Shown one piece after another: positions 4,741-36,732 of a stretch of 36,954 nt of DNA (position 1 is the stretch's first letter; every line of letters begins with the position of its first letter). This DNA comes from Akkermansia muciniphila (GTDB lineage: Bacteria; Verrucomicrobiota; Verrucomicrobiia; Verrucomicrobiales; Akkermansiaceae). Where the stretch lies: the NCBI GenBank assembly GCA_945883695.1, contig CAMCYK010000035.1:1-36954 (forward strand), given 5' to 3'. The notes under the pieces are model-generated. The model saw only the letters and a list, made by a program, of their open reading frames with translations. It searched no databases and had not been told where the DNA came from. The translations under genes and the position numbers were made by a program.

Positions 4741-5040
4741 TTGTCCTGCCCGTTACCCACAAGTCGGGTGCCTCCCGTCTTATGCCCCAACGGGGCAACA
4801 CGAGATAGCCCGGGGCCGGCAACGCGCAGCCCCGGGATCGGGCGAAGTCTCGGCGCCGCGCTGAAAGTGCGGGATGGGGCGGGTGGCACGGGACGTCTCG
4901 TCGTACCGGCCCCATCGCGCCCTTTCAGGGTGCCAGATCCCGGACCCACGGACCCGGGGCTGCGCCAAGCCTTGCCCCGGGCTATCTCATCACGCCCCGT
5001 TGGGGCTTGAATCAAACGAGGTGGGTAACGGGCAGGACTT
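4741..5040. repeat. Long imperfect inverted-repeat island (REP-like)
   Basis: Two nested pairs of arms are visible. The outer pair shares an 18-base GTGGGTAACGGGCAGGAC motif, on the minus strand at about 4743-4760 and on the plus strand at 5021-5038. The inner pair is about 33 bases each, 4784-4816 against 4974-5006, mostly identical after inversion. Each inner arm contains its own small palindrome (GCCCCAACGGGGC). A further direct copy of the outer motif's CTGCCCGTTACCCACAA lies at 4695-4711. The centre (about 4820-4970) is GC-rich with no supported gene. The form fits a repetitive extragenic palindrome cluster or a non-autonomous mobile element. Confidence 0.75.
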
Positions 5041-24049: not shown

Positions 24050-25378
24050 ATGATCAATCGCAGAGAAATGCTTCATGGAATGGCAACCGGTGTCGGTGCG
24101 CTGCTTGGCACTAGTTTGTTCCCCGACCTTGCCCAGGCCGCTGACACGCCGGTGATTAAAGCAGCGGGCGGTCCCAAGCGGGTTGTTTTCTTTTTGCAAA
24201 ACCATGGTTTCGACCCGCTGACGTGCATCCCCAAGGAGCTTAAGGAAAGCTGCGCGCTCAGCGGGTTGGCCCTTGCGGAACCCATGAAGGCTCTGGAGCC
24301 TTACAAAGACAGAATGCACATCATCACCGGGTTGCATGGCCGCCACACCAACCCGGGACACAGCGCTTATTTCGGAGCCCTTGGCGCGTATCGCGGGGGG
24401 ACCGGTGTGCCGCCGTCCGCGGCCACCATTGATTATGTGCTCAGCCAGTCACTGCCGCAAACCATCCTGCCGCCGCTTTGCATCGGCATGGAATCGCTCG
24501 ACAGCATGAGAGCCCGACCAACCCTAGCCACTCTTTCGGCGGCAGGGCCGAATCAGCCGATCTTCATGCATTGCGACCCCACCATGCTGTTTCAACTGCT
24601 CTTCGGCAGCATTGCCAAGGGTGCCATAAAACAGCACTACGAGGCACGCTCCCATATCATGCTTGAAGTCGAACGCGTGGCGCAACTCAAGGCGAAGGGA
24701 TTGCCCTTGAGCGAAGGCGAGCGCTACGGCAGGTATGTCAGCGGATTTCGCGATCTGAACGGATTGAATGAGAAATTGTCCAAGATTTCGGATCAGCTTA
24801 AGAAATTCGCCCCGAAACTTGATGATCGTTACACCAATCCCAGATTTGAAACCGACTGGCACGATGCCCTGTTGGATGTCGGCATCGCGGCTCTCCAGGC
24901 GAATCTGACCAACGTGCTGACGATCGCTTCCGGATGCGGTGAGTATTTCGGCTCCTGGAAAGGACTGGGTATCACGGAAACCGGCCACGGGCTTGGTCAC
25001 ATCGATCAACCTGGCAATCCAATCTGGACGAAAATTCGTCAATACAACTGTGAGATGTTGGTCAAGCTCATGAAAGCCCTGGAGGCGACTCCGGAAGGCG
25101 CGGGATCGATGATGGACAACACCTTGATCGTCTATTCGAGCAACAATGCGGAGAAGCAGCATTCCGAAGGTGCAACATGGCCCTTTGTGCTTCTCGGCAA
25201 TGCCGGTGGCCGGTTCAAAACAGGTCAATACACGCACATCAAAGAGCGGCCGATCAACGATCTCTATGCCACCTTCCTACATGGAGTTGGCGCGCCCGTT
25301 GACCGCTTCAACATGGAAAAAAACATGGCCACGCTCCATCACAGCATGGTTGGCCCGATCGAGGAATTATTGGCGTAG
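24050..25378 (+). CDS. DUF1552 domain protein
   Basis: The 442-residue protein starts with a twin-arginine-like leader (NRREMLHG, residues 3-10, then a hydrophobic stretch to about 30), so export by Tat is likely. The body matches the DUF1552 family: 'RVVFFLQNHGFDPLTC', 'HIITGLHGRHTNPGHSAYFGALGAYRG', 'ETGHGLGHID' and 'DNTLIVYSSNNAEKQHS'. DUF1552 proteins resemble the sulfatase/alkaline-phosphatase-like DUF1501 proteins of planctomycetes and verrucomicrobia. They are almost always paired with a DUF1592-type cytochrome, as here; no enzymatic activity is established. The next gene starts 4 bases after its stop, so the two are one unit. The whole 24-30.5 kb block looks less GC-rich than the flanks. 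Confidence 0.88.
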   Translation: MINRREMLHGMATGVGALLGTSLFPDLAQAADTPVIKAAGGPKRVVFFLQNHGFDPLTCIPKELKESCALSGLALAEPMKALEPYKDRMHIITGLHGRHTNPGHSAYFGALGAYRGGTGVPPSAATIDYVLSQSLPQTILPPLCIGMESLDSMRARPTLATLSAAGPNQPIFMHCDPTMLFQLLFGSIAKGAIKQHYEARSHIMLEVERVAQLKAKGLPLSEGERYGRYVSGFRDLNGLNEKLSKISDQLKKFAPKLDDRYTNPRFETDWHDALLDVGIAALQANLTNVLTIASGCGEYFGSWKGLGITETGHGLGHIDQPGNPIWTKIRQYNCEMLVKLMKALEATPEGAGSMMDNTLIVYSSNNAEKQHSEGATWPFVLLGNAGGRFKTGQYTHIKERPINDLYATFLHGVGAPVDRFNMEKNMATLHHSMVGPIEELLA

Positions 25379-25382
25379 TGGT

Positions 25383-28088
25383 ATGAGAGCCCCTCAGCCG
25401 CTCCATTTTGCGATGGTACTCGCCTCCCTGCTTTTCTCGCAAGCCCGTGCGGACGAACCTCGTCATGCCGGCGCGACTCCTGGCATTCAGCAGGCCATCG
25501 CGGAATCCAGAAACTGGACTGACACCGACGGCAGCACCGTCGAAGCCGAATTCGTCCGGCTCGAGGGCAGCAAAGTCTATTTGCAAGACAAACACGGAAA
25601 GACATGGCAGGTCGAACTGGGTATCTTGAGTGCCGCCGACCATGCCTATGTTCAACAATTTGCCCACCCCGGCAAAAAAAAACCGGATGCTGATGTCGTT
25701 CACAAAGTAGAAGCGGGGGATGCCGGTTTCAAGAAGATGGTCGCACCGTTTCTCGAAAACTACTGCCTTGATTGCCACGACGAAGAGACCAGAAAAGGCA
25801 ATGTCTCACTGGAGAGTCTCAGCGATGTTTCGGCGGACAATGCCAGTTTGTGGAAGCGGATCTGGGAGCAGGTGGCGCTGAAGGAAATGCCGCCGCGGAA
25901 GAAAACCAACCAACCGCAGTTGATGGAGCGTTGGGAACTTTCGACGTGGATCACCGACGAACTGACCACGGCGATGAAGGACAAAGGCGGGTTCACCGAC
26001 CACATGCGTCCCATCAAGGGCAATCATCTCGACCACGATCTGCTCTTCGGACCGCTGCCCGAAAACCTCGAACCCGCGTCCACACCGGCCCGCATCTGGC
26101 GCATTCATCCCCAGGAACAAATGGTCCGCCTGAACGATCTCGTTAGCCTGAAAAGAAAATACGATCCGCAACGTCCGGGACTCTGGACCCATGGCGATCA
26201 CATCCCATCGAATCTCGAAGGGGAGACCAAGGTCTATTTCGGCCTCGATCAATTTCTGGGTGCTTTCGACGATGCATACAGTGTTGGTGTCAGCGGGTTC
26301 CAGTCCTCCTTTTCCATGGTTCGGGACCATGGCTTGCGCAACTATCCGTTCCTTTACTCGGCCAACAGTTCCGAGGCTCTGCAGATTGCCGGCATCGCGG
26401 AAAAGGTGCTGCGTTACATGGCCTACGGCCCCGCTGCCGAGCCCTACCAGTTTGCCGATGACATCAAGTCCATCCCCGGAGAATATCGAAACCTGAACCT
26501 CATTTTTTATACAAAGGAAGTCAAACGTCCGCTGACACCCGTGTACGAGTTCATGAAGTCCCCGGGGGTGAACGATGAACAACTGAAGGGTGTCATCCAA
26601 TTTCTGTTTGAAGCCCTGACATTGCGCCCGCCGACCAAGGAAGAGACCGCTGTTTATCTCGACATCGTCAATCAGTCGATCAAGGAACTCGGCAAGGAGG
26701 ACGGCGTGATCCTCGGGCTGGTGCCGATCTTCCTCGACCGCGACGCGCTCTTTCGCCCGGAACTTTGTGAGGGCGGGGAGCCCGACGCGCACGGACGCCT
26801 GCCGCTGCAAGGCAACGAACTCGCACTCGCCCTGAACGCCGCCTTCTCCTACATCCGACCTGATAACGATCGTCTCAGGACCGCTCTCGCCGAGGGGCAA
26901 CTCAGAACCCGCGAAGACGTCAGACGCGAGGTTACCCGCATCCTGAACGACGACAGCATCCGCAAACCGCGCATCCTCCAGTTCTTCAGGGAATATTTCG
27001 ACTATGATCGGGCTCCCGGAATCTGCAAGGACCGCACGTTCCTGGAGAAAGACGGGGGGCATTACGACACCTACTACGCAGCGATGAACAGCATGGTCGC
27101 CAATACCGACGCTCTCATCGAGTTGATCCTGCGGGAAGACAAAAACGTCTTGAAGGAAATGCTCACCACCGACCGCGTCATCTACCAGCCCTACACCTCC
27201 GGCGCGAACTTTCGGGACGGCATCTTGTTCAAATCCGACATCGGCTATTTCATGAATAGGGGAAAGAAATTCGAGGAGTTCATAAAAGCCGAGCAGATCG
27301 AGCCCACCAACGACAACAAACTGGTTATCGAACGAGCAGAGCGGGAAGCTTACGACCAGAACATGCTCCATCACATCTTCCCCAACCCCGCTCAACCGAT
27401 CCACGTCCGGCAGTCGCCATTCGACAAAGGCCGTTTCCCGCCCGCCACGGATGCTTTGAAGGCCATCACCACCGTGGACACGAAAGACCGCCTCGGCATT
27501 CTCACCCACCCCGTCTGGCTGGCGTCTCATTCGGATGCCATGGACAACCACGCCATCTCGCGCGGACGTTGGGTCCGCGAACGTCTGCTCGGCGATGCCG
27601 TGCCCGACATCCCGATCACGGTGGATGCCAAGCTCCCGGTGGAACCCGAGTCCACCCTGCGCGACCGGATGCGGGTCACCCGGAAAGAGGAATGTTGGCG
27701 TTGTCATCAGAAAATGGACCCGCTCGGACTGCCCTTCGAGAAGTACAATCAACTCGGCATCCTCCTCGACACCAACCCTTCCAACAACTGGGGCCACCCG
27801 GTTGACACCACCGGCGAAATCATTCTCAGCGGCGACCCTGCTCTGGATGGTCCAGTAAAAGATCCGATGGAGATGATCCGCAGGCTCGCGGCCAGCGAGC
27901 GGGTCAAACAGGTCTTTGTTCGCCACGTCTTCCGCTTCTGGATGGGACGAAGTGAAACCATCAACGACGCTCCGATTCTTCAGGATGCCTACAAGTCCTA
28001 TCGCGACAGCAATGGCAGCATGAAGGCTTTGCTGACATCCCTGCTCACCTCAGATGCTTTTCTATATCGAAAGATGAACAAAAATTAA
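25383..28088 (+). CDS. DUF1592/DUF1588/DUF1585 c-type cytochrome with SHD1 domain (copy A)
   Basis: The ATG at 25383 is chosen because it gives a signal peptide (about residues 1-24) and lies 4 bases after the DUF1552 stop; a longer open frame upstream overlaps that gene. The 901-residue product has, in order: an SHD1-like domain (about 38-90, 'RNWTDTDGSTVEAEFVRLEG'); a planctomycete-type cytochrome c segment with haem motif C128-x2-C131-H132; DUF1592; DUF1588 ('GRWVRERLLGDAVPDIP') with a second motif C771-x2-C774-H775; and DUF1585 at the C-terminus ('FRFWMGRSETINDAP'). It is probably a periplasmic dihaem protein handling electrons for its DUF1552 partner; substrate unknown. It is paralogous to the next gene, which lacks SHD1. 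Confidence 0.9.
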   Translation: MRAPQPLHFAMVLASLLFSQARADEPRHAGATPGIQQAIAESRNWTDTDGSTVEAEFVRLEGSKVYLQDKHGKTWQVELGILSAADHAYVQQFAHPGKKKPDADVVHKVEAGDAGFKKMVAPFLENYCLDCHDEETRKGNVSLESLSDVSADNASLWKRIWEQVALKEMPPRKKTNQPQLMERWELSTWITDELTTAMKDKGGFTDHMRPIKGNHLDHDLLFGPLPENLEPASTPARIWRIHPQEQMVRLNDLVSLKRKYDPQRPGLWTHGDHIPSNLEGETKVYFGLDQFLGAFDDAYSVGVSGFQSSFSMVRDHGLRNYPFLYSANSSEALQIAGIAEKVLRYMAYGPAAEPYQFADDIKSIPGEYRNLNLIFYTKEVKRPLTPVYEFMKSPGVNDEQLKGVIQFLFEALTLRPPTKEETAVYLDIVNQSIKELGKEDGVILGLVPIFLDRDALFRPELCEGGEPDAHGRLPLQGNELALALNAAFSYIRPDNDRLRTALAEGQLRTREDVRREVTRILNDDSIRKPRILQFFREYFDYDRAPGICKDRTFLEKDGGHYDTYYAAMNSMVANTDALIELILREDKNVLKEMLTTDRVIYQPYTSGANFRDGILFKSDIGYFMNRGKKFEEFIKAEQIEPTNDNKLVIERAEREAYDQNMLHHIFPNPAQPIHVRQSPFDKGRFPPATDALKAITTVDTKDRLGILTHPVWLASHSDAMDNHAISRGRWVRERLLGDAVPDIPITVDAKLPVEPESTLRDRMRVTRKEECWRCHQKMDPLGLPFEKYNQLGILLDTNPSNNWGHPVDTTGEIILSGDPALDGPVKDPMEMIRRLAASERVKQVFVRHVFRFWMGRSETINDAPILQDAYKSYRDSNGSMKALLTSLLTSDAFLYRKMNKN
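26066..26184 (+). repeat. Near-identical patch shared with 28551-28669
   Basis: These 119 bases match 28551-28669 with a single mismatch (26152), while the flanking sequence of the two paralogues differs at many third positions. The pattern fits recent gene conversion between the tandem DUF1592 genes. Confidence 0.75.
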
Positions 28089-28104
28089 ACATATCGATCA
28101 ACTC

Positions 28105-30540
28105 ATGGCGTCGATCCATCAACTGATCTCTTGCACGGTACTGCCAAGCCTGCTTTTCCCTCTGCTGGCTGCTGCGAGCCATCCTCAAACAAGGCACGGT
28201 GACGCAACGGACTTCACCGCCAAGGTCAGGCCCTTTCTCGAAAGCTACTGCTTTGATTGTCACGACGAAGAGACTCAGAAAGGAAAAGTCTCACTGGAGG
28301 GTCTCAGCGATGTTTCGGCCGACAATGCCAGCATGTGGAAGCGGATTTGGGAACAAGTGGCGCTGAAGGAAATGCCTCCGCGGAGGAAGTCGAACCAACC
28401 GGGGTTGATGGAGCGCTTGGAACTCTCGACGTGGATCACCGATGAATTGACCACGGCGATGAAAGACAAAGGCGGATTCACCGACCACATGCGTCCCATC
28501 AAGGGCAATCATCTGGATCACGACCTGCTCTTTGGGGACTTGCCCAAGAGCCTCGAACCCGCGTCCACACCGGCCCGCATCTGGCGCATTCATCCCCAGG
28601 AACAAATGGTCCGCCTGAACGATCTCGTTAGCCTGAGAAGAAAATACGATCCGCAACGTCCGGGACTCTTGACCCATGGCGATCATATCCCGTCGAATCT
28701 CGAAGGGGAGACCAAGGTCTATTTCGGCCTTGATGGCTATCTGGGAAGTTTCGGGGACGCATATAATTTTGGTGTCGGCGGATTCCAGTCCAGTCTGTCG
28801 ATGATCCGCGATCACGGCCTGCGCAACTACCCTTTCCTCTACACCGTCAATAGCTCGGAGTCCCTGCAGATCGCCGGCATCGCGGAAAGGGTCCTGCGTT
28901 TCATGGCTTACGGTCCCGCAGCCGAGCCTTACCAATTTGCGGATGATATCGAACAGGTCCCCGGGGAATACAGGGGAATGAATATCATCTTCTACAAAAA
29001 GGGGGTTTATCGACCCCTGACACCCGTTTATGAGCTGATGAAAACGCCAGGCGTCAGCGATGAGCGCCTCAAGGAGGTGATCACATTCCTGTTTGAGTCC
29101 CTAACGCTGCGCCCGCCGAGTGATGCGGAGACCGCCGTTTACCTGGAAATAGCCAACAAATCCATCAAGGAACTCGGCAAGGAAGAAGGGGTCTTCCTGG
29201 GACTGGTTCCGATCTTTCTCGACCGCGACGCGCTCTTTCGCCCGGAACTCGGCAGACATGGAGACCCGGACAAGTATGGTCGCGTGCCACTGCAAGGGGA
29301 AGAACTCGCCCTTGCGATCAACGCGGCCTTCTCTTACATCCGCCCGGAAAACGATCATCTGCGAACGGCACTGGCCGAGGGGAAACTCAAAACCCGCGAG
29401 GATGTCAAACGGGAAGTCACCCGCATTCTGAACGACGACAGCATCCGCAAGCCGCGCATTCTGCAATTTTTCAGGGAATATTTCGACTACGATCGCGCCG
29501 CAACGATCTGCAAGACCAGGGAGTCGATCGAGGGACAAGGAGCGCATTATGAGTCGCATCCCGCAGTCATGAACAGCATGATCGCCAACACCGATGGTCT
29601 GATCGAGTTGATCCTGCGGGAGGACAAAGATGTTCTCAAGGAGTTGCTGACGACAAATCGTGTGATCTATCAACCCTACACGTCGGTGCGGATTCCCCGT
29701 GGCATGACCACCGACATCGCCTATTTTATCAACCGAAAGAAACCGTTTGCGCAGATCAAGACATACAATGCGGATGCGGTGAAAAAGGGAGAGGAGGAAA
29801 AGGAGCAACATGAGGTCACCAACGGGAACCAACTCCATCACATTTTGCCGAATCCCGCCCAGCCGATTTATGTGCGTCAGTCACAATTTGACAATGGCAT
29901 TTTCCCGCCTGCCAAAGATGCTTTGAAGGCAATCACAACGGTCGATACAAATGAGCGCCTCGGCATTTTGACCCATCCTGTTTGGCTGGTCGCGCACTCG
30001 GATGCGATGGAAAACCATGCGATTTCGCGCGGTCGCTGGGTTCGCGAACGGCTGCTCGGCGACGCCGTGCCGGATATTCCGATCACGGTCGATGCCAAGC
30101 TGCCGGAAGAACCCGAGTCCACCCTGCGTGAACGGATGCGCGTCACCCGGGAGGCGGAATGCTGGCGCTGCCATCAGAAAATGGATCCGCTCGCGCTGCC
30201 ATTTGAAATGTACAATCATCTGGGAATGCTGCGCGACAGCGACAAGGGAAAGCCGGTTGACACCAGCGGCGAAATTGTCCTCAGCGGCGATCCCGCTCTG
30301 AATGGGCCGGTGAAAGACCCCTTGGAAATGATTCAGAAACTCGCGGCCAGCGAACGGGTCAAACAGGTCTTTGTGCGCCATGTGTTTCGCTTCTGGATGG
30401 GACGCAATGAAACCATCAATGACGCGCCGATCCTGCAGGATGCCTACAAGGCCTATCGCGACAGCAGTGGCAGCATGAAGGCATTGTTGACATCCCTTCT
30501 CACTTCCGACGCCTTCCTCTATCGGGAAGTGACGGAATAG
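28105..30540 (+). CDS. DUF1592/DUF1588/DUF1585 c-type cytochrome (copy B)
   Basis: The 811-residue product is collinear with copy A from its haem domain onwards and clearly arose by tandem duplication. After a signal peptide (about 1-24) come C49-x2-C52-H53, DUF1592, DUF1588 with C686-x2-C689-H690, and DUF1585. It differs in having no SHD1 domain, and the variable loop around residues 535-575 is changed: copy A has 'KKFEEFIKAEQIEPTND', copy B a lysine/glutamate-rich insert. It starts 16 bases after copy A, so it should be the third gene of the same operon. Both haem motifs are intact, so it looks functional; the two may have diverged in partner or substrate. Confidence 0.9.
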   Translation: MASIHQLISCTVLPSLLFPLLAAASHPQTRHGDATDFTAKVRPFLESYCFDCHDEETQKGKVSLEGLSDVSADNASMWKRIWEQVALKEMPPRRKSNQPGLMERLELSTWITDELTTAMKDKGGFTDHMRPIKGNHLDHDLLFGDLPKSLEPASTPARIWRIHPQEQMVRLNDLVSLRRKYDPQRPGLLTHGDHIPSNLEGETKVYFGLDGYLGSFGDAYNFGVGGFQSSLSMIRDHGLRNYPFLYTVNSSESLQIAGIAERVLRFMAYGPAAEPYQFADDIEQVPGEYRGMNIIFYKKGVYRPLTPVYELMKTPGVSDERLKEVITFLFESLTLRPPSDAETAVYLEIANKSIKELGKEEGVFLGLVPIFLDRDALFRPELGRHGDPDKYGRVPLQGEELALAINAAFSYIRPENDHLRTALAEGKLKTREDVKREVTRILNDDSIRKPRILQFFREYFDYDRAATICKTRESIEGQGAHYESHPAVMNSMIANTDGLIELILREDKDVLKELLTTNRVIYQPYTSVRIPRGMTTDIAYFINRKKPFAQIKTYNADAVKKGEEEKEQHEVTNGNQLHHILPNPAQPIYVRQSQFDNGIFPPAKDALKAITTVDTNERLGILTHPVWLVAHSDAMENHAISRGRWVRERLLGDAVPDIPITVDAKLPEEPESTLRERMRVTREAECWRCHQKMDPLALPFEMYNHLGMLRDSDKGKPVDTSGEIVLSGDPALNGPVKDPLEMIQKLAASERVKQVFVRHVFRFWMGRNETINDAPILQDAYKAYRDSSGSMKALLTSLLTSDAFLYREVTE

Positions 30541-30972: not shown

Positions 30973-32088
30973 TTACGAACGAGGCTCCCGCTCCGGATCG
31001 ACCGGGCCGATGCTGCCACCCGGGATGAAGGTGGCCGGGAAGTTGATCTGCGTGCGATCCGGGTGGCCGCGCCGGGCGGCAGCGACCCAGCGCACGATGC
31101 GGCGGATCACCGGAGCCGCGCTCCAAGTGGTGTGGGAGACGGCGGGATGGCACCAGGTGAGCGCATTGTCGTAGTCCCCGCAAACCAGCGAAACCTGGTC
31201 CGGCACGCGGACCCCGATGCGGGAGAGATATTGCAGCGCCGCGATGTAGCGCGCCAGTCCATCGAGGATCATGGCCGTGGGCGGCGCGTTGCGGAACAGT
31301 TCCGCCAGCAGTTCGCTGAACCCCTCCGGACTCTCCTTCCAGTCAGGCAGGTTATAGTCCCCGGTCGCAATCCCATGGGCTTCGAGCTCGTCCAGAAAAG
31401 CGCGTTCGACGTTTCCCGGCATCGGCTTCCTCCGCGGGCGGAGGGTGATGAACACGATGCGCCGATGTCCCAAGGCGATAAGTGCTCGAGTTGTGGCAAG
31501 GATGGCGGGGAGATGGTCCGGACCGGTCCTGGCCATCTGCAGACCGTCGGTACGGCCGTAAACGGCGATACTCGGGATCGGCTGCCCGGCGAACCATTCC
31601 AACAACTCGCGCGATCCCGCGAGCACGATCCAAGTGTCCACCGGATATTTCGCGATCTCCTGCCGGATGCGGGTCACGCTGTGCCCGAGTTCGACCTGGG
31701 ACTTCTTGGCGAAAACGACCTGGTGGCCGGCGGCTTCCAGTGCGTGCTGGATTTCGAGTGTCACCGAATCGCGATGCGCCGGCCACGATTTGGGCTGCCC
31801 CACGGGCCTCGAGTCGTGGGTGAGGATCCCCACGGTCATCGACTTGCGCGGGCGTCCGACACCCGGCTGCGGTGCCACCCTGCGGCTGCGGCAATGCCCG
31901 CCGGAAACCAGGAGTCCCTCCGCTTCGAGTTTCCGCAGCGCCGGACGCATGGTGGATTCGGAAACATTCAGCTCCTCGCAAAGCGGCTGCACGCCAGGCA
32001 GTTTTTCGCTCCACTGCCCGGACCGCACCCTTTCACGCAGGTGTTCGGCGGTTTGATCGACCAGCGAGAGGCGGTGGAAGGACTTCAT
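30973..32088 (-). CDS. GntR-headed transcriptional regulator with LacI-type ligand domain
   Basis: Residues 1-75 form a GntR-type winged helix ('LREKV'-like opening helix, 'LPGVQPLCEELNVSESTMRPALRKLEAEGLLV', quoted here in parts as the recognition region around 30-60). Residues about 83-365 form a periplasmic-binding-protein-like sugar sensor of the LacI/GalR kind: 'MTVGILTHD', 'LIALGHRRIVFITLR', 'VRVPDQVSLVCGDYDN'. This hybrid class (AraR-like) is common in Verrucomicrobia and usually controls polysaccharide or sugar genes. It diverges from the large secreted-protein gene at 32368, and a perfect 15-bp inverted repeat lies between them, so regulation of itself and that gene is likely. Confidence 0.85.
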   Translation of the reverse strand: MKSFHRLSLVDQTAEHLRERVRSGQWSEKLPGVQPLCEELNVSESTMRPALRKLEAEGLLVSGGHCRSRRVAPQPGVGRPRKSMTVGILTHDSRPVGQPKSWPAHRDSVTLEIQHALEAAGHQVVFAKKSQVELGHSVTRIRQEIAKYPVDTWIVLAGSRELLEWFAGQPIPSIAVYGRTDGLQMARTGPDHLPAILATTRALIALGHRRIVFITLRPRRKPMPGNVERAFLDELEAHGIATGDYNLPDWKESPEGFSELLAELFRNAPPTAMILDGLARYIAALQYLSRIGVRVPDQVSLVCGDYDNALTWCHPAVSHTTWSAAPVIRRIVRWVAAARRGHPDRTQINFPATFIPGGSIGPVDPEREPRS

Positions 32089-32208
32089 GAAAGTGGCGGT
32101 TCGCGCGCTCGATAGCTACTCTGAAAAACAAGGTAGATAGAAGCGGAAAATCGTGATGGACCGGAATGAGTTTGCCCGGGCCGGCCTGTTTGCATTTGCT
32201 CGGATTGT

Positions 32209-32248
32209 CCCTTGTCAGCAATCTGTGATCGCGGATTGCTGACAAGGG
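32209..32248. promoter_or_regulatory. Perfect 15-bp inverted repeat in a divergent promoter region
   Basis: The arm at 32209-32223 (CCCTTGTCAGCAATC) is exactly inverted at 32234-32248, around a 10-base spacer. It lies 120 bases from each of the two divergent starts (32088 and 32368). There is no T tract, so it is not an intrinsic terminator. It is a strong candidate operator for the adjacent regulator, or an RNA hairpin in the 5' leader of one transcript. Confidence 0.7.
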
Positions 32249-32367
32249 GTCGTCCCCGAATCGCGCCCCGGGCCCCCATGGTCCACCGAAAGCGCGACGA
32301 TCTGTCGAGAATCGCCGCGGCGCAAACTGACGAATCCCCAAGCGGGGAGCAACCGATCCCCACAACC

Positions 32368-35300
32368 ATGAAACAAGCAAGAACCTGGATAAGTCGAACT
32401 GCCCTGGCGGTGTTCGCCTCCGCAGTCTTTGGTCAAACCGCGATGGCGGCCCCCGGCACCACCGTCAATGTCAACTTGGCCCTCACCGGTGCCCTCGACG
32501 AGATGGACGGGAAACCGTTCATTTCGTCCAGTTTCCAACAGGCCCCGGCCCCTTACCCGGGTACCAGATGGAACGACGTGGTTCGTGAGCTGGTCATTGC
32601 CTCGAATACCGAACCCGGCAGCTCGGTCACCCGGACGGACCTGCTGGATAGCACTGGCGGCGCCACCACCATCGGCTTCACGACCGCTTCCACGACCACC
32701 CCGTTCGACTTTGATGGACCGTATACGTTCTCCGACCACCCGGATACCACGCTGCTCAACGGCGGGGACCGCCGGGTGTGGAATTCGGGGAGCGGTAATC
32801 TCTTGCACAATCGTCTGACCGTCACCGGATTGGATGACGCCAAGGTCTACGACCTTTTTATTGCCAGTTCGCAAACTCCGCTGGTCAAGTGCTCTTGGCA
32901 AATCGGTCCGTCCGGCACCCCCAAGGAAATCCGGAACAGCGCCGTGACGCGGGACTCACAGACGTGGAGACCCGGCGACAACTGGGTGGTTTTCCATGAT
33001 GTCCCGACCAATGGCTCGGGCAGCATCGACGTCCGCGGCCTGGGTCAGGCCGGAAGCAACGGCGGGGCCTTCAGCGGTCTCACCCTGAACGGCTTCCAAA
33101 TCGTCGAGGCCACCGGTTGGCAGAGCCCGGACACCTCCATCTATGATTTTGGCACGCCGGCGGTTGCCGGCACATCGTCGGTGGTTTCCGCCAACGGGAC
33201 CGGCGACAGCATCGCTTGGACCGTGCTGTTCGCCGCGAATCTGTCAACCCTCGCGCCGACCTTCTCCCTGGCGGACGGCGCGACGTGCTCCCCTCCTTCC
33301 GGCAGCACCCAAAACTTCTCGCTCGGCCCGGTGAATTACACCGTCACCGCCGAGGACGGCACGCAGCGGATCTACGCGGTTTCGACCGTCCTGGGGCCTC
33401 CGAGTGAAGCCAATGAAATGCTGTCGATCGGCACGGCGGACCCCTTCGCTATGTCGGAAATTCTCGGGACGGATGTGACATTCTACCTCCCGCCCGGCAC
33501 TCCGCTGAACCCGGTCACCCCGATCATCACGCTTTCTCCCTTCGCCACCGTCTCCCCGGCTTCCGGAGTCGCCCGCAATTTCACCGCGCCCGTGAACTAC
33601 ACCGTGACCGCTCAGGACGGTGTCTCGACGGCGATCTACACCGTGACCGCCGTGGTTCTCGACGGCTTGGAGATCCCCGAGAACCAGACCTACACGATCA
33701 ACGGCGGAAATGTGACCGTTGAGGGGCAGCTCACCACCTGGAACGAACTCGGTCCCTTGACGATGCAAAACGGTGCCACGCTGTGGTCCCAGCCGCCTCA
33801 GAACAATGTGGTTCTCAACCGGGCCGGCCTCATCCTGGCGGGCAACGGTGGCACTTACAACTTCAGGTTCAACGACAACGACACCCACTTCAAGTTGACC
33901 GGCCCGATCAAATCGATCGGAACCGGTGCCCAGACCCTCGCCATCTATACCGGCGATATTGGCAATGGCGACCGCGAGTCGGTCACCTTCTACTCGGGTA
34001 TCCCTGATGTCGGAGACGCCAGCCCGATGTCGGTTCAAGCGAGGTTTCAAACCCAGACCGGTTCCACCAGCTTCGTCAACTTGCCCGGCAACAACACCTT
34101 CACCGGTCCGCTCACCCTGTTGAAGGGCAATGCGGTGAACGATGGATTTTTGACGATCGGTGGCGTGCGCACCAACACCGAGACCATCCCCGGCACCGGA
34201 CGGCTGGGCGGCGGCGACTATCCGGGTGCCATCACCCTCGACGTCAACACCACCTTCAACTACCTCAGCTCCGCCGCTCAGACCTTGTCCGGCGTGATCT
34301 CCGGCCCGGGCAAGGTGGTCGTGGGCGGGGGCGGCACGGTGACCCTGTCAGGCCTCAACACCTACACCGCCAACACGACTGTCAGCGCCGGCAGCACGCT
34401 GATCCTTGCGGACAATGGCGGAATGACCTTCGCGATCACCGACAGCTCCGCCACCAAGATCACCGGTGCGGGCACCGCCACCTTGGATGGCGATTTCACC
34501 ATCGACACCGCGGCGGTGACCGTTGCTACCGGCTCTTGGACCCTGGTCGATACCACCGTCAAGGCCTTCACCGGCAATTTCAGCATCGCCGGGGCGGGTT
34601 GGACGGAAACCGCCAACATCTGGAAGAAAACGGTCGGTCCCGCAACTTGGATCTTCAACGAGGCCAACGGCGTGCTCACCCGCGGTTCCTTCGGGGTGAT
34701 TACCAGCTTCACGGCTCCCAACTCTTCGAGCCAGATCAACAACAGTGCGCTGACCATCAAGCTTTTGGTGCCAGTCGGAACGAATCTGGCGACCCTCGCG
34801 CCGACCTTCACGCTAAGCGGCGGAACTTGCAACCAGACCAGCGGCGCGGCACCTTCGCCGACTTTCGCCGCGCAGAATCCCGTCACCTACACGGTCACCG
34901 ACACCGCCAGCGATCCCGACACGGTGAACAGCTACACGGTGACGGTGGTCGAAACGTCGATGGTCTTGAGCGGGCTGACCGTTTGGTTGAAAGCCGATGA
35001 TGTGAATCCCTCCGATCCCGCTCAAGTGGACGGTTTGGGTTCGGTCGTCCAGTGGAAGGACTCCAGCGGCCAGGGTAACAATGCGGCCAATGCCGCCACG
35101 GGCGACCGGCCGACTTATGTGGCCGTCGCCGCGAACTCGCTGCCGGCGATCCGCTTCGCGCAGGACAACGACGACAACGGGGATCGCCTCTTCCTTGGGG
35201 ATTTGAGTGCGAAGTTCCCCACCGGGGCCACGATGTTCGCGGTGGTGACACCCAGCAATGACGGCCGCTACAACGTCTTCGACAACCGGACCAACGATTC

Positions 35301-36732
35301 CCGGTGGATGGCCAACACCTGGACCGAAGCCGTGCCCGGAGCCTTCCGCAATGATCGCGCCAACATGGGGCCCTTCAACCTCTGGCCGCAGTCCGGTTCC
35401 CACATCATCGCGATGCAAAGCGGCACTTCGGATCCCTACACCTACACGATCGACGGCAACCCGACCCAGAGCGCCGCGGCGCAATACAACAACGGTGCGG
35501 GACAAAACTGGGTCATCGCCAACCGGCCGAACGGCGGTCAGGCGCTGAATGGCGACATCTCCGAGTTCATTCTCTTCAACCGGGTTCTAACCGCTGAGGA
35601 GAACATGGCGATGGGCGGGTATCTGACCGCCAAGTATGGTTTGAACACCAACTATCCGCTTCCCGGGCAAATCAGGACCTTCGGCATCGCCGGTAGCGAC
35701 GGGGTGATCAACCAAGGAGCCAAGACGATCAGCCTGAGCGTGCCGTTCGGGACCAATTTGGCGACCCTCGCGCCAACCTTCACGCTGTCTGGCGGCACCT
35801 GCGACCAGACCAGCGAATCCCCGCCGTCGCCGACCTTCGCGGTTGCCAACCCGGCCACCTACACCGTGACCGACACCGCAACCAATCCGGACACCGTGAA
35901 CGCCTACACCGTGACGGTCACCGTGCAGCCACCGCCACCCGCGAATGACAACTTCGCCAACGCGATCGCGTTGGCGCCGGCGGCCGCCGGCACCCGGACC
36001 GGGAGCGGCACCGTCTCCGCCACCACGGAAGTGGACGAACCCAATAGCGGCGGGGTCACCCGCTCGGTGTGGTTCAAGTGGACCAGCCCGTCGGACGGCG
36101 ATTTCACCATCAATACCACGGGCTCGACGAACCCCGGTGACGGTGAATGGGATGCGGTGATTGGCATTTATACGGGGACGGCGCTTGCCAACCTGGCCTC
36201 GCTTCCTGGAACGCCGCAAGATACCGGTCTTGAGGAGGTCATCACCAAGGCAGTTACGGCCGGAACGACCTACTTCATCCAGCTGGTCGGGTTTGAGAAT
36301 CAGGAGGCGGAGAACATCCTCCTTACCTGGAGCTTTACCGGCAGTGGTGGAGACTTTCAGACCTGGGCCGATGGGTTCGGCCTGGTGGGCGGTGCCGCCG
36401 ACGATGACGACCGCGACGGCAAGAGCAACTTCGATGAATATGCCTTCGGACTCAATCCGACCAGCGGTTCGTCAGTGGACCCAATCAGCCAGCAGCTCGA
36501 CAAGGGAACCGGCATCTTCAAGTACACCCGCCGGGCGACCCCGGCCACGACCGGGCTCACCTACACCTACGAGTGGTCGACCTCCCTCACGGGAACTTGG
36601 AACACGTTCACCCCCGTGACCAGCCCGCCGGCAAGTGACGATGCGACTCCGGTCGAGACCATTACGATCCAGGTCCCTGCCGCCCAGTTGGCCCAGCCGG
36701 CGCTGTTCGTGCGGGTAAGGGCCTTGCAGTGA
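32368..36732 (+). CDS. Large secreted/surface protein with PATR, LamG-like and PPC-like domains
   Basis: The ATG at 32368 gives a signal peptide cleaved after AMA (residue 27); the open frame further upstream runs through the regulatory palindrome and is not used. The product has 1454 residues. Two Ig-like modules ('NYTVTAEDGTQRIY', 'NYTVTAQDGVST') lie at about 255-430. An autotransporter-associated beta-strand repeat ('GVISGPGKVVVGGGGTVTLSG') lies near 634-691. A LamG/concanavalin-like lectin domain spans about 866-1094 ('LTVWLKADDV', 'VQWKDSSGQGNNA', 'GDISEFILFNRVLT'). Two almost identical 'NLATLAPTFTLSGGTC' modules flank the lectin. A PPC-like beta domain (about 1191-1321) and a 'DDRDGKSNFDEYAFGLNPT' tail end the protein. 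It probably binds or displays on polysaccharide; no catalytic residues are recognised. It is followed by an intrinsic terminator. Confidence 0.82.
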   Translation: MKQARTWISRTALAVFASAVFGQTAMAAPGTTVNVNLALTGALDEMDGKPFISSSFQQAPAPYPGTRWNDVVRELVIASNTEPGSSVTRTDLLDSTGGATTIGFTTASTTTPFDFDGPYTFSDHPDTTLLNGGDRRVWNSGSGNLLHNRLTVTGLDDAKVYDLFIASSQTPLVKCSWQIGPSGTPKEIRNSAVTRDSQTWRPGDNWVVFHDVPTNGSGSIDVRGLGQAGSNGGAFSGLTLNGFQIVEATGWQSPDTSIYDFGTPAVAGTSSVVSANGTGDSIAWTVLFAANLSTLAPTFSLADGATCSPPSGSTQNFSLGPVNYTVTAEDGTQRIYAVSTVLGPPSEANEMLSIGTADPFAMSEILGTDVTFYLPPGTPLNPVTPIITLSPFATVSPASGVARNFTAPVNYTVTAQDGVSTAIYTVTAVVLDGLEIPENQTYTINGGNVTVEGQLTTWNELGPLTMQNGATLWSQPPQNNVVLNRAGLILAGNGGTYNFRFNDNDTHFKLTGPIKSIGTGAQTLAIYTGDIGNGDRESVTFYSGIPDVGDASPMSVQARFQTQTGSTSFVNLPGNNTFTGPLTLLKGNAVNDGFLTIGGVRTNTETIPGTGRLGGGDYPGAITLDVNTTFNYLSSAAQTLSGVISGPGKVVVGGGGTVTLSGLNTYTANTTVSAGSTLILADNGGMTFAITDSSATKITGAGTATLDGDFTIDTAAVTVATGSWTLVDTTVKAFTGNFSIAGAGWTETANIWKKTVGPATWIFNEANGVLTRGSFGVITSFTAPNSSSQINNSALTIKLLVPVGTNLATLAPTFTLSGGTCNQTSGAAPSPTFAAQNPVTYTVTDTASDPDTVNSYTVTVVETSMVLSGLTVWLKADDVNPSDPAQVDGLGSVVQWKDSSGQGNNAANAATGDRPTYVAVAANSLPAIRFAQDNDDNGDRLFLGDLSAKFPTGATMFAVVTPSNDGRYNVFDNRTNDSRWMANTWTEAVPGAFRNDRANMGPFNLWPQSGSHIIAMQSGTSDPYTYTIDGNPTQSAAAQYNNGAGQNWVIANRPNGGQALNGDISEFILFNRVLTAEENMAMGGYLTAKYGLNTNYPLPGQIRTFGIAGSDGVINQGAKTISLSVPFGTNLATLAPTFTLSGGTCDQTSESPPSPTFAVANPATYTVTDTATNPDTVNAYTVTVTVQPPPPANDNFANAIALAPAAAGTRTGSGTVSATTEVDEPNSGGVTRSVWFKWTSPSDGDFTINTTGSTNPGDGEWDAVIGIYTGTALANLASLPGTPQDTGLEEVITKAVTAGTTYFIQLVGFENQEAENILLTWSFTGSGGDFQTWADGFGLVGGAADDDDRDGKSNFDEYAFGLNPTSGSSVDPISQQLDKGTGIFKYTRRATPATTGLTYTYEWSTSLTGTWNTFTPVTSPPASDDATPVETITIQVPAAQLAQPALFVRVRALQ
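34696..35930 (+). repeat. Duplicated module inside the surface-protein gene
   Basis: About 85 codons at roughly 34696-34950 recur at roughly 35680-35930, on either side of the LamG-like domain. They share NLATLAPTFTLSGGTC, an 'xTSxxxPSPTFAxxNPxTYTVTDTA' pattern and 'DTVNxYTVTV'. The nucleotide match is close enough for recombination or slippage to remove the lectin domain between them. Confidence 0.75.

Follow-up and report, generated by a model that had tools for sequence, protein, structure and literature searches.

A perfect 15-bp inverted repeat between divergent genes for a GntR/LacI-type regulator and a surface protein of Akkermansia muciniphila, possibly a leader stem-loop

A stretch of 36,954 nucleotides of Akkermansia muciniphila (the window) carries a regulator gene and a large surface-protein gene in divergent orientation, and the gap between the two holds a perfect inverted repeat (Table 1), which reads CCCTTGTCAGCAATC (arm), TGTGATCGCG (spacer) and GATTGCTGACAAGGG (arm). 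Is this dyad the operator of the adjacent regulator, a hairpin in the leader of the surface-protein gene, a site for some other factor, or a sequence without function? A first-pass annotation had favoured the regulator, with a leader hairpin as the second option.

Table 1. Coordinates of the features discussed, as positions in the window
Feature	Position	Strand	Basis
Regulator, 371 aa: GntR winged helix (residues 10-61) and Peripla_BP_3 (LacI-type sensor)	30973..32088	-	Pfam
Proposed operator close to the regulator start, ATCTAC-N13-GTAG	32116..32138	-	degenerate counterpart of the 10-bp dyad of L045
Predicted longer imperfect stem, 31 pairs, small internal loops	about 32191..32265	+	RNA fold, z -6.5
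Perfect 15-bp inverted repeat, 10-base spacer	32209..32248	+	15/15 pairs
Surface-located or secreted protein of 1454 aa with DUF5018-type repeats	32368..36732	+	Pfam; start chosen from sequence

Besides its DUF5018-type repeats the surface protein has a weak, sub-threshold match to Laminin_G_3. For its gene we prefer the ATG at 32368 (+), which precedes a signal-peptide-like N-terminus; an ATG at 32278 would add 30 residues in front of that sequence. With this choice, and with the regulator ATG at 32088 (-), the gap between the two ATGs measures 279 bp and the dyad lies at its midpoint, 120 bases from arm to start codon on the regulator side and 119 on the side of the surface gene. The symmetry noticed in the first-pass annotation is therefore there for these two ATGs; since the alternative in-frame ATG at 32278 would spoil it, the midway placement hinges on the choice of start. 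Elsewhere in the window, an Rfam match to the Acido-Lenti-1 RNA (RF01687) was seen at 4953-5007 (+), scoring 37.9 bits where the gathering threshold is 37, and two adjacent genes at 25146-30540 (+) encode PSCyt1/PSD4/PSCyt3/PSD2 domains, as in planctomycete-type cytochrome proteins.

The dyad is a real and unusually perfect hairpin-forming DNA palindrome. Its arms and spacer are just as the first-pass annotation gave them. When the 279-bp gap was shuffled 2,000 times by a first-order Markov model, no stem was longer than 11, and none of 200 shuffles of the whole window gave a stem longer than 14. To place the dyad in its genome, 1.23 Mb (60 stretches and the window, the masked part left out) were surveyed for perfect dyads with spacers of 3-30 bases. 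There were 43 of at least 12 bp. Six of these, including one of 33 bp, measure at least 15 bp, a length for which about 0.2 would be expected; dyads of this length are thus rare in this genome and not unique. The perfect 33-bp inverted repeat (L121, 9143-9224, contig C16) has a 16-base spacer, and its resemblance in the arms to a 15-bp dyad (L145, 8665-8717) suggests a family of hairpin repeats. Dyads with common AGGAGTGTCGAC arms (L109, 1183-1215; L120, 5533-5583) probably belong to another repeat family.

According to a home-made gene caller, which picked ATG 32278 for the surface gene, the dyad of the window is the only one of the 43 to lie in a divergent gap, a class that makes up 28,918 of the 154,455 gap bases. 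The remaining 42 are found within predicted genes (13), in tandem gaps (19), in convergent gaps (nine) and at an edge (one), and several of them, just past a gene end and with a T-rich tail, look like terminators. The tails beside the dyad of the window, GTCGTCCCCGA and ACAATCCG, are T-rich on neither side, and a scan of 31950-32500 returned no terminator-like site. It follows that the dyad is no typical terminator and that its placement is exceptional in this sample; as an intrinsic terminator, in which a T run should come directly after a G+C-rich stem, it was rejected. Dyads of the form CCCTTG...CAAGGG occur in 11 places against eight for a control. The other two long ones lie about 18 bases past the end of a secA-like gene (named from its translation; contig C15) and at a contig end (C344), and because their inner arms are unlike those of the dyad we claim no family.

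At up to three mismatches the dyad is present once in its own genome. It is absent from the 287 other genomes of a set of relatives (288 counting its own) and from the 386 others of a sample of the phylum (387 counting its own), two sets that overlap. Arm-like sequences, again at up to three mismatches, number 25 in 1.2 Mb of the genome, which is the level of chance, given 8-43 for 12 shuffled arms. The single copy and the chance-level arms lead us to reject a repeat family in the own genome; scattered copies, the finding that the first-pass annotation had named as speaking against its proposal, are excluded there at the same three mismatches. A REP/REPIN element was rejected on copy number, with one copy and arm counts at chance. 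An origin from phage or plasmid was rejected, as the dyad has no exact match in viral contigs and the gap no match in plasmids; the 15-base arm alone was seen in 104 viral stretches, which is about chance by a rough estimate of the size of the collection. The genome contains 28 matches to the Y1 transposase (PF01797), the best at C23:1489-1830. In the flanks of six of these 28, a 12-base piece of the arm was absent at up to one mismatch, with one occurrence at two mismatches. The flank of one Y1 match (L286) holds a 44-nt imperfect inverted repeat of its own.

If the dyad were the operator of the adjacent regulator, something like it might be looked for in front of related regulators. The regulator belongs to a large, expanded family: its own genome has nine matches (E 1e-5), and at E 1e-30 or better a match is present in 56 of 144 genomes, counting its own. 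From part of these family matches 75 non-identical upstream regions were collected, one locus being represented twice (L017/L046). In their last 120 bases, an expectation-maximisation search found the proximal motif TTt.ttCTcGACAaCTagCCC..ttT.gGG (estimated fraction 94%). It scores at least 10 bits in 58 of the 75 regions, and its end usually lies 11-35 bases ahead of the start of the match. The count is in-sample, since the regions scored with the family matrix are those that it was derived from, including the near-identical pairs L021/L022, L031/L035, L082/L086 and L017/L046. Several instances are clear dyads, for example in L084 (AACCTGCC-N9-GGCAGGTT) and L048 (CCATCTACC-N10-GGTAGATGG). Read as CTyGACAACCTgnCCC with a partial dyad partner, as in L084, L048 and L042, the motif is a candidate family-wide operator. 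Dyads are mildly enriched in the family's upstream regions: of 74 regions, 17.6% have a best dyad score of at least 7 between -70 and -5 (4.1% for shuffles), and 8.1% between -135 and -70 (5.1% for shuffles). A perfect dyad of at least 12 bp within 450 bases upstream is found in three of the 75 regions only (the window itself, as L007, with L029 and L064), and a long dyad is therefore no feature of the family. Nothing resembling the dyad of the window was found upstream of the 74 other regulators, and a paralogous pair of the same genome (C29), in which the regulator gene likewise diverges from a homologous surface gene, is without such a long dyad. We infer from the upstream sequences that regulators of this family act through the proximal motif. 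The motif offers a concrete operator hypothesis for many gene pairs of the Verrucomicrobia, and in this respect it is more useful than the dyad.

The closest ortholog of the regulator (L045, 69% identity) lies on a contig titled as a Prosthecobacter debontii MAG; the other five named matches bear Verrucomicrobia names. It is divergent from a gene for a 1653-aa protein that is homologous to the surface protein of the window (37% over 643 alignment columns). Thirteen bases before its regulator start is a perfect 10-bp dyad, GGAATCTACT-N11-AGTAGATTCC; the 450 upstream bases hold no other dyad with a score of at least 8, and the 15-bp dyad is absent. The best 26-base match between the gaps of the window and of L045 is this proximal site, with 19 of 26 bases identical, a value reached by eight of 500 shuffles. 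The segments NVSESTMRPALRKL (window) and NVSQGTIRAALRNL (L045), which we take to be the recognition helices of the two regulators, are similar. On this comparison the operator of the regulator is most likely the site at 32116-32138, a case made by position and by the ortholog and not by matrix score. On the family matrix the 15-bp dyad reaches 2.7 bits and the proximal site -0.4 bits, neither of them convincing, and the best match in the gap, 32084-32113, overlaps the start codon and is off the proximal dyad. With such low scores at both sites the matrix does not decide between them; with the dyad slightly ahead of the proximal site, the regulator could bind at the dyad.

What, then, would the dyad do as RNA? 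Transcribed from the + strand, it is predicted to form a 19-bp stem round a tetraloop, counting two G-T pairs, as the core of the longer stem of Table 1. The fold of the opposite strand is weaker (a 15-bp stem, z -4.65), because the two extra pairs, G-U on the + strand, become A-C there; the strand asymmetry thus amounts to two pairs only. The leader as a whole (32139-32367) has an unremarkable stability (z -1.47). No recognisable sigma-70 promoter came out of a scan of 31950-32500, so there is no predicted transcription start that puts the dyad in a leader. No Rfam family matches at the dyad at gathering scores, and as it is conserved in no relative, compensatory changes cannot be counted.

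We consider the dyad a lineage-specific cis element of the divergent gap which most likely forms a stem-loop in the surface-protein mRNA, within its 5' leader, and would put the probability of this at a little under 0.4. The strand asymmetry and the divergent place point in this direction, as do the lack of anything terminator-like and the fact that the regulator has another candidate operator; that the dyad is transcribed, and acts in a leader, is what we infer from them. A promoter to the left of about 32205 would give a leader of about 120-160 bases with the 19-bp stem-loop at or near its 5' end, in a position to protect the mRNA or to insulate it from the upstream context, while the GntR/LacI regulator would most likely use the separate site adjoining its own start, as related regulators seem to do. 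It would be bolder, and rather improbable, to see here a leader stem-loop newly acquired by one species in the middle of a conserved divergent gap, adding control at the RNA level beside an ancestral proximal operator.

The two operator readings and a neutral inverted duplication carry a weight comparable to that of the leader stem-loop. As a primary or auxiliary operator of the adjacent regulator, the dyad would be placed to control both promoters from the midpoint of the gap, and its single copy is what a local regulator leads one to expect; its arms hold CTTGTCAGC, which is similar to CTTGACAAC/CTTGTCAAC within the family motif, and its matrix score, obtained on the + strand, ranks 140th among 73,850 positions. 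Its absence from the closest ortholog and from in front of the 74 other family members, and its 15-bp arms with centres 25 bp apart, unlike the proximal site of the family, make such an operator unlikely. The geometry and the rarity that had recommended the dyad as the best candidate site of the regulator therefore stand, whereas its rank as best candidate is weakened by the proximal motif of the relatives, by the ortholog with its proximal dyad and no 15-bp dyad, and by the degenerate counterpart of that dyad in the window. An unlinked transcription factor could also own the site, the dyad being long and perfect and placed in a divergent gap, where operators are usual and terminators are not; we regard this as quite unlikely, for the genome contains no second site at up to three mismatches and arm-like sequences stay within the range of the shuffled arms. 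The dyad may finally be functionless, a recent neutral inverted duplication made by template switching, or a trace that a mobile element left behind. Perfect arms, a single copy and the lack of the dyad in every relative are in line with such an origin, as are the six long dyads of the survey, two of them with a common AGTCCGCTCG arm end, and the 28 Y1 transposase matches. Against it speak the six Y1 flanks that were free of the arm piece at up to one mismatch, the lack of a plasmid match for the gap, and the finding that no other long perfect dyad of the 1.23-Mb sample occupies a divergent gap; we hold an origin of this sort to be possible and somewhat doubtful. The dyad is no new kind of system. 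Among cis-regulatory or neutral dyads it is an ordinary one, unusual in its perfection.

Three known systems invite comparison. Verrucomicrobia are among the bacteria for which PMC3733652 describes GTAG-tagged REP repeats. Like the REP elements in that description (tags GTAG or CGTC), the dyad is an intergenic palindrome, and a CGTC two bases past its right arm recalls the tag; unlike them, it is a single copy with similar arms elsewhere not above chance. With the operators of regulators that combine a winged helix and a Peripla_BP_3 domain it shares a place near the local regulator, in a gap common to the divergent target, whereas the family motif is short-armed and as a rule 11-35 bases from the regulator start, and the dyad has 15-bp arms and lies 120 bases away. 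Stem-loops in 5' leaders stabilise the mRNA of outer-membrane protein genes, as in the ompA leader. The ompA-type stem-loops are unrelated to the dyad in sequence and phylum; they resemble it in standing upstream of a surface-protein gene, and the length of their leader would be comparable to that of the surface gene if transcription started to the left of the dyad. If it is transcribed, the dyad would be a simple test case of a new hairpin recruited to control a surface-protein gene.
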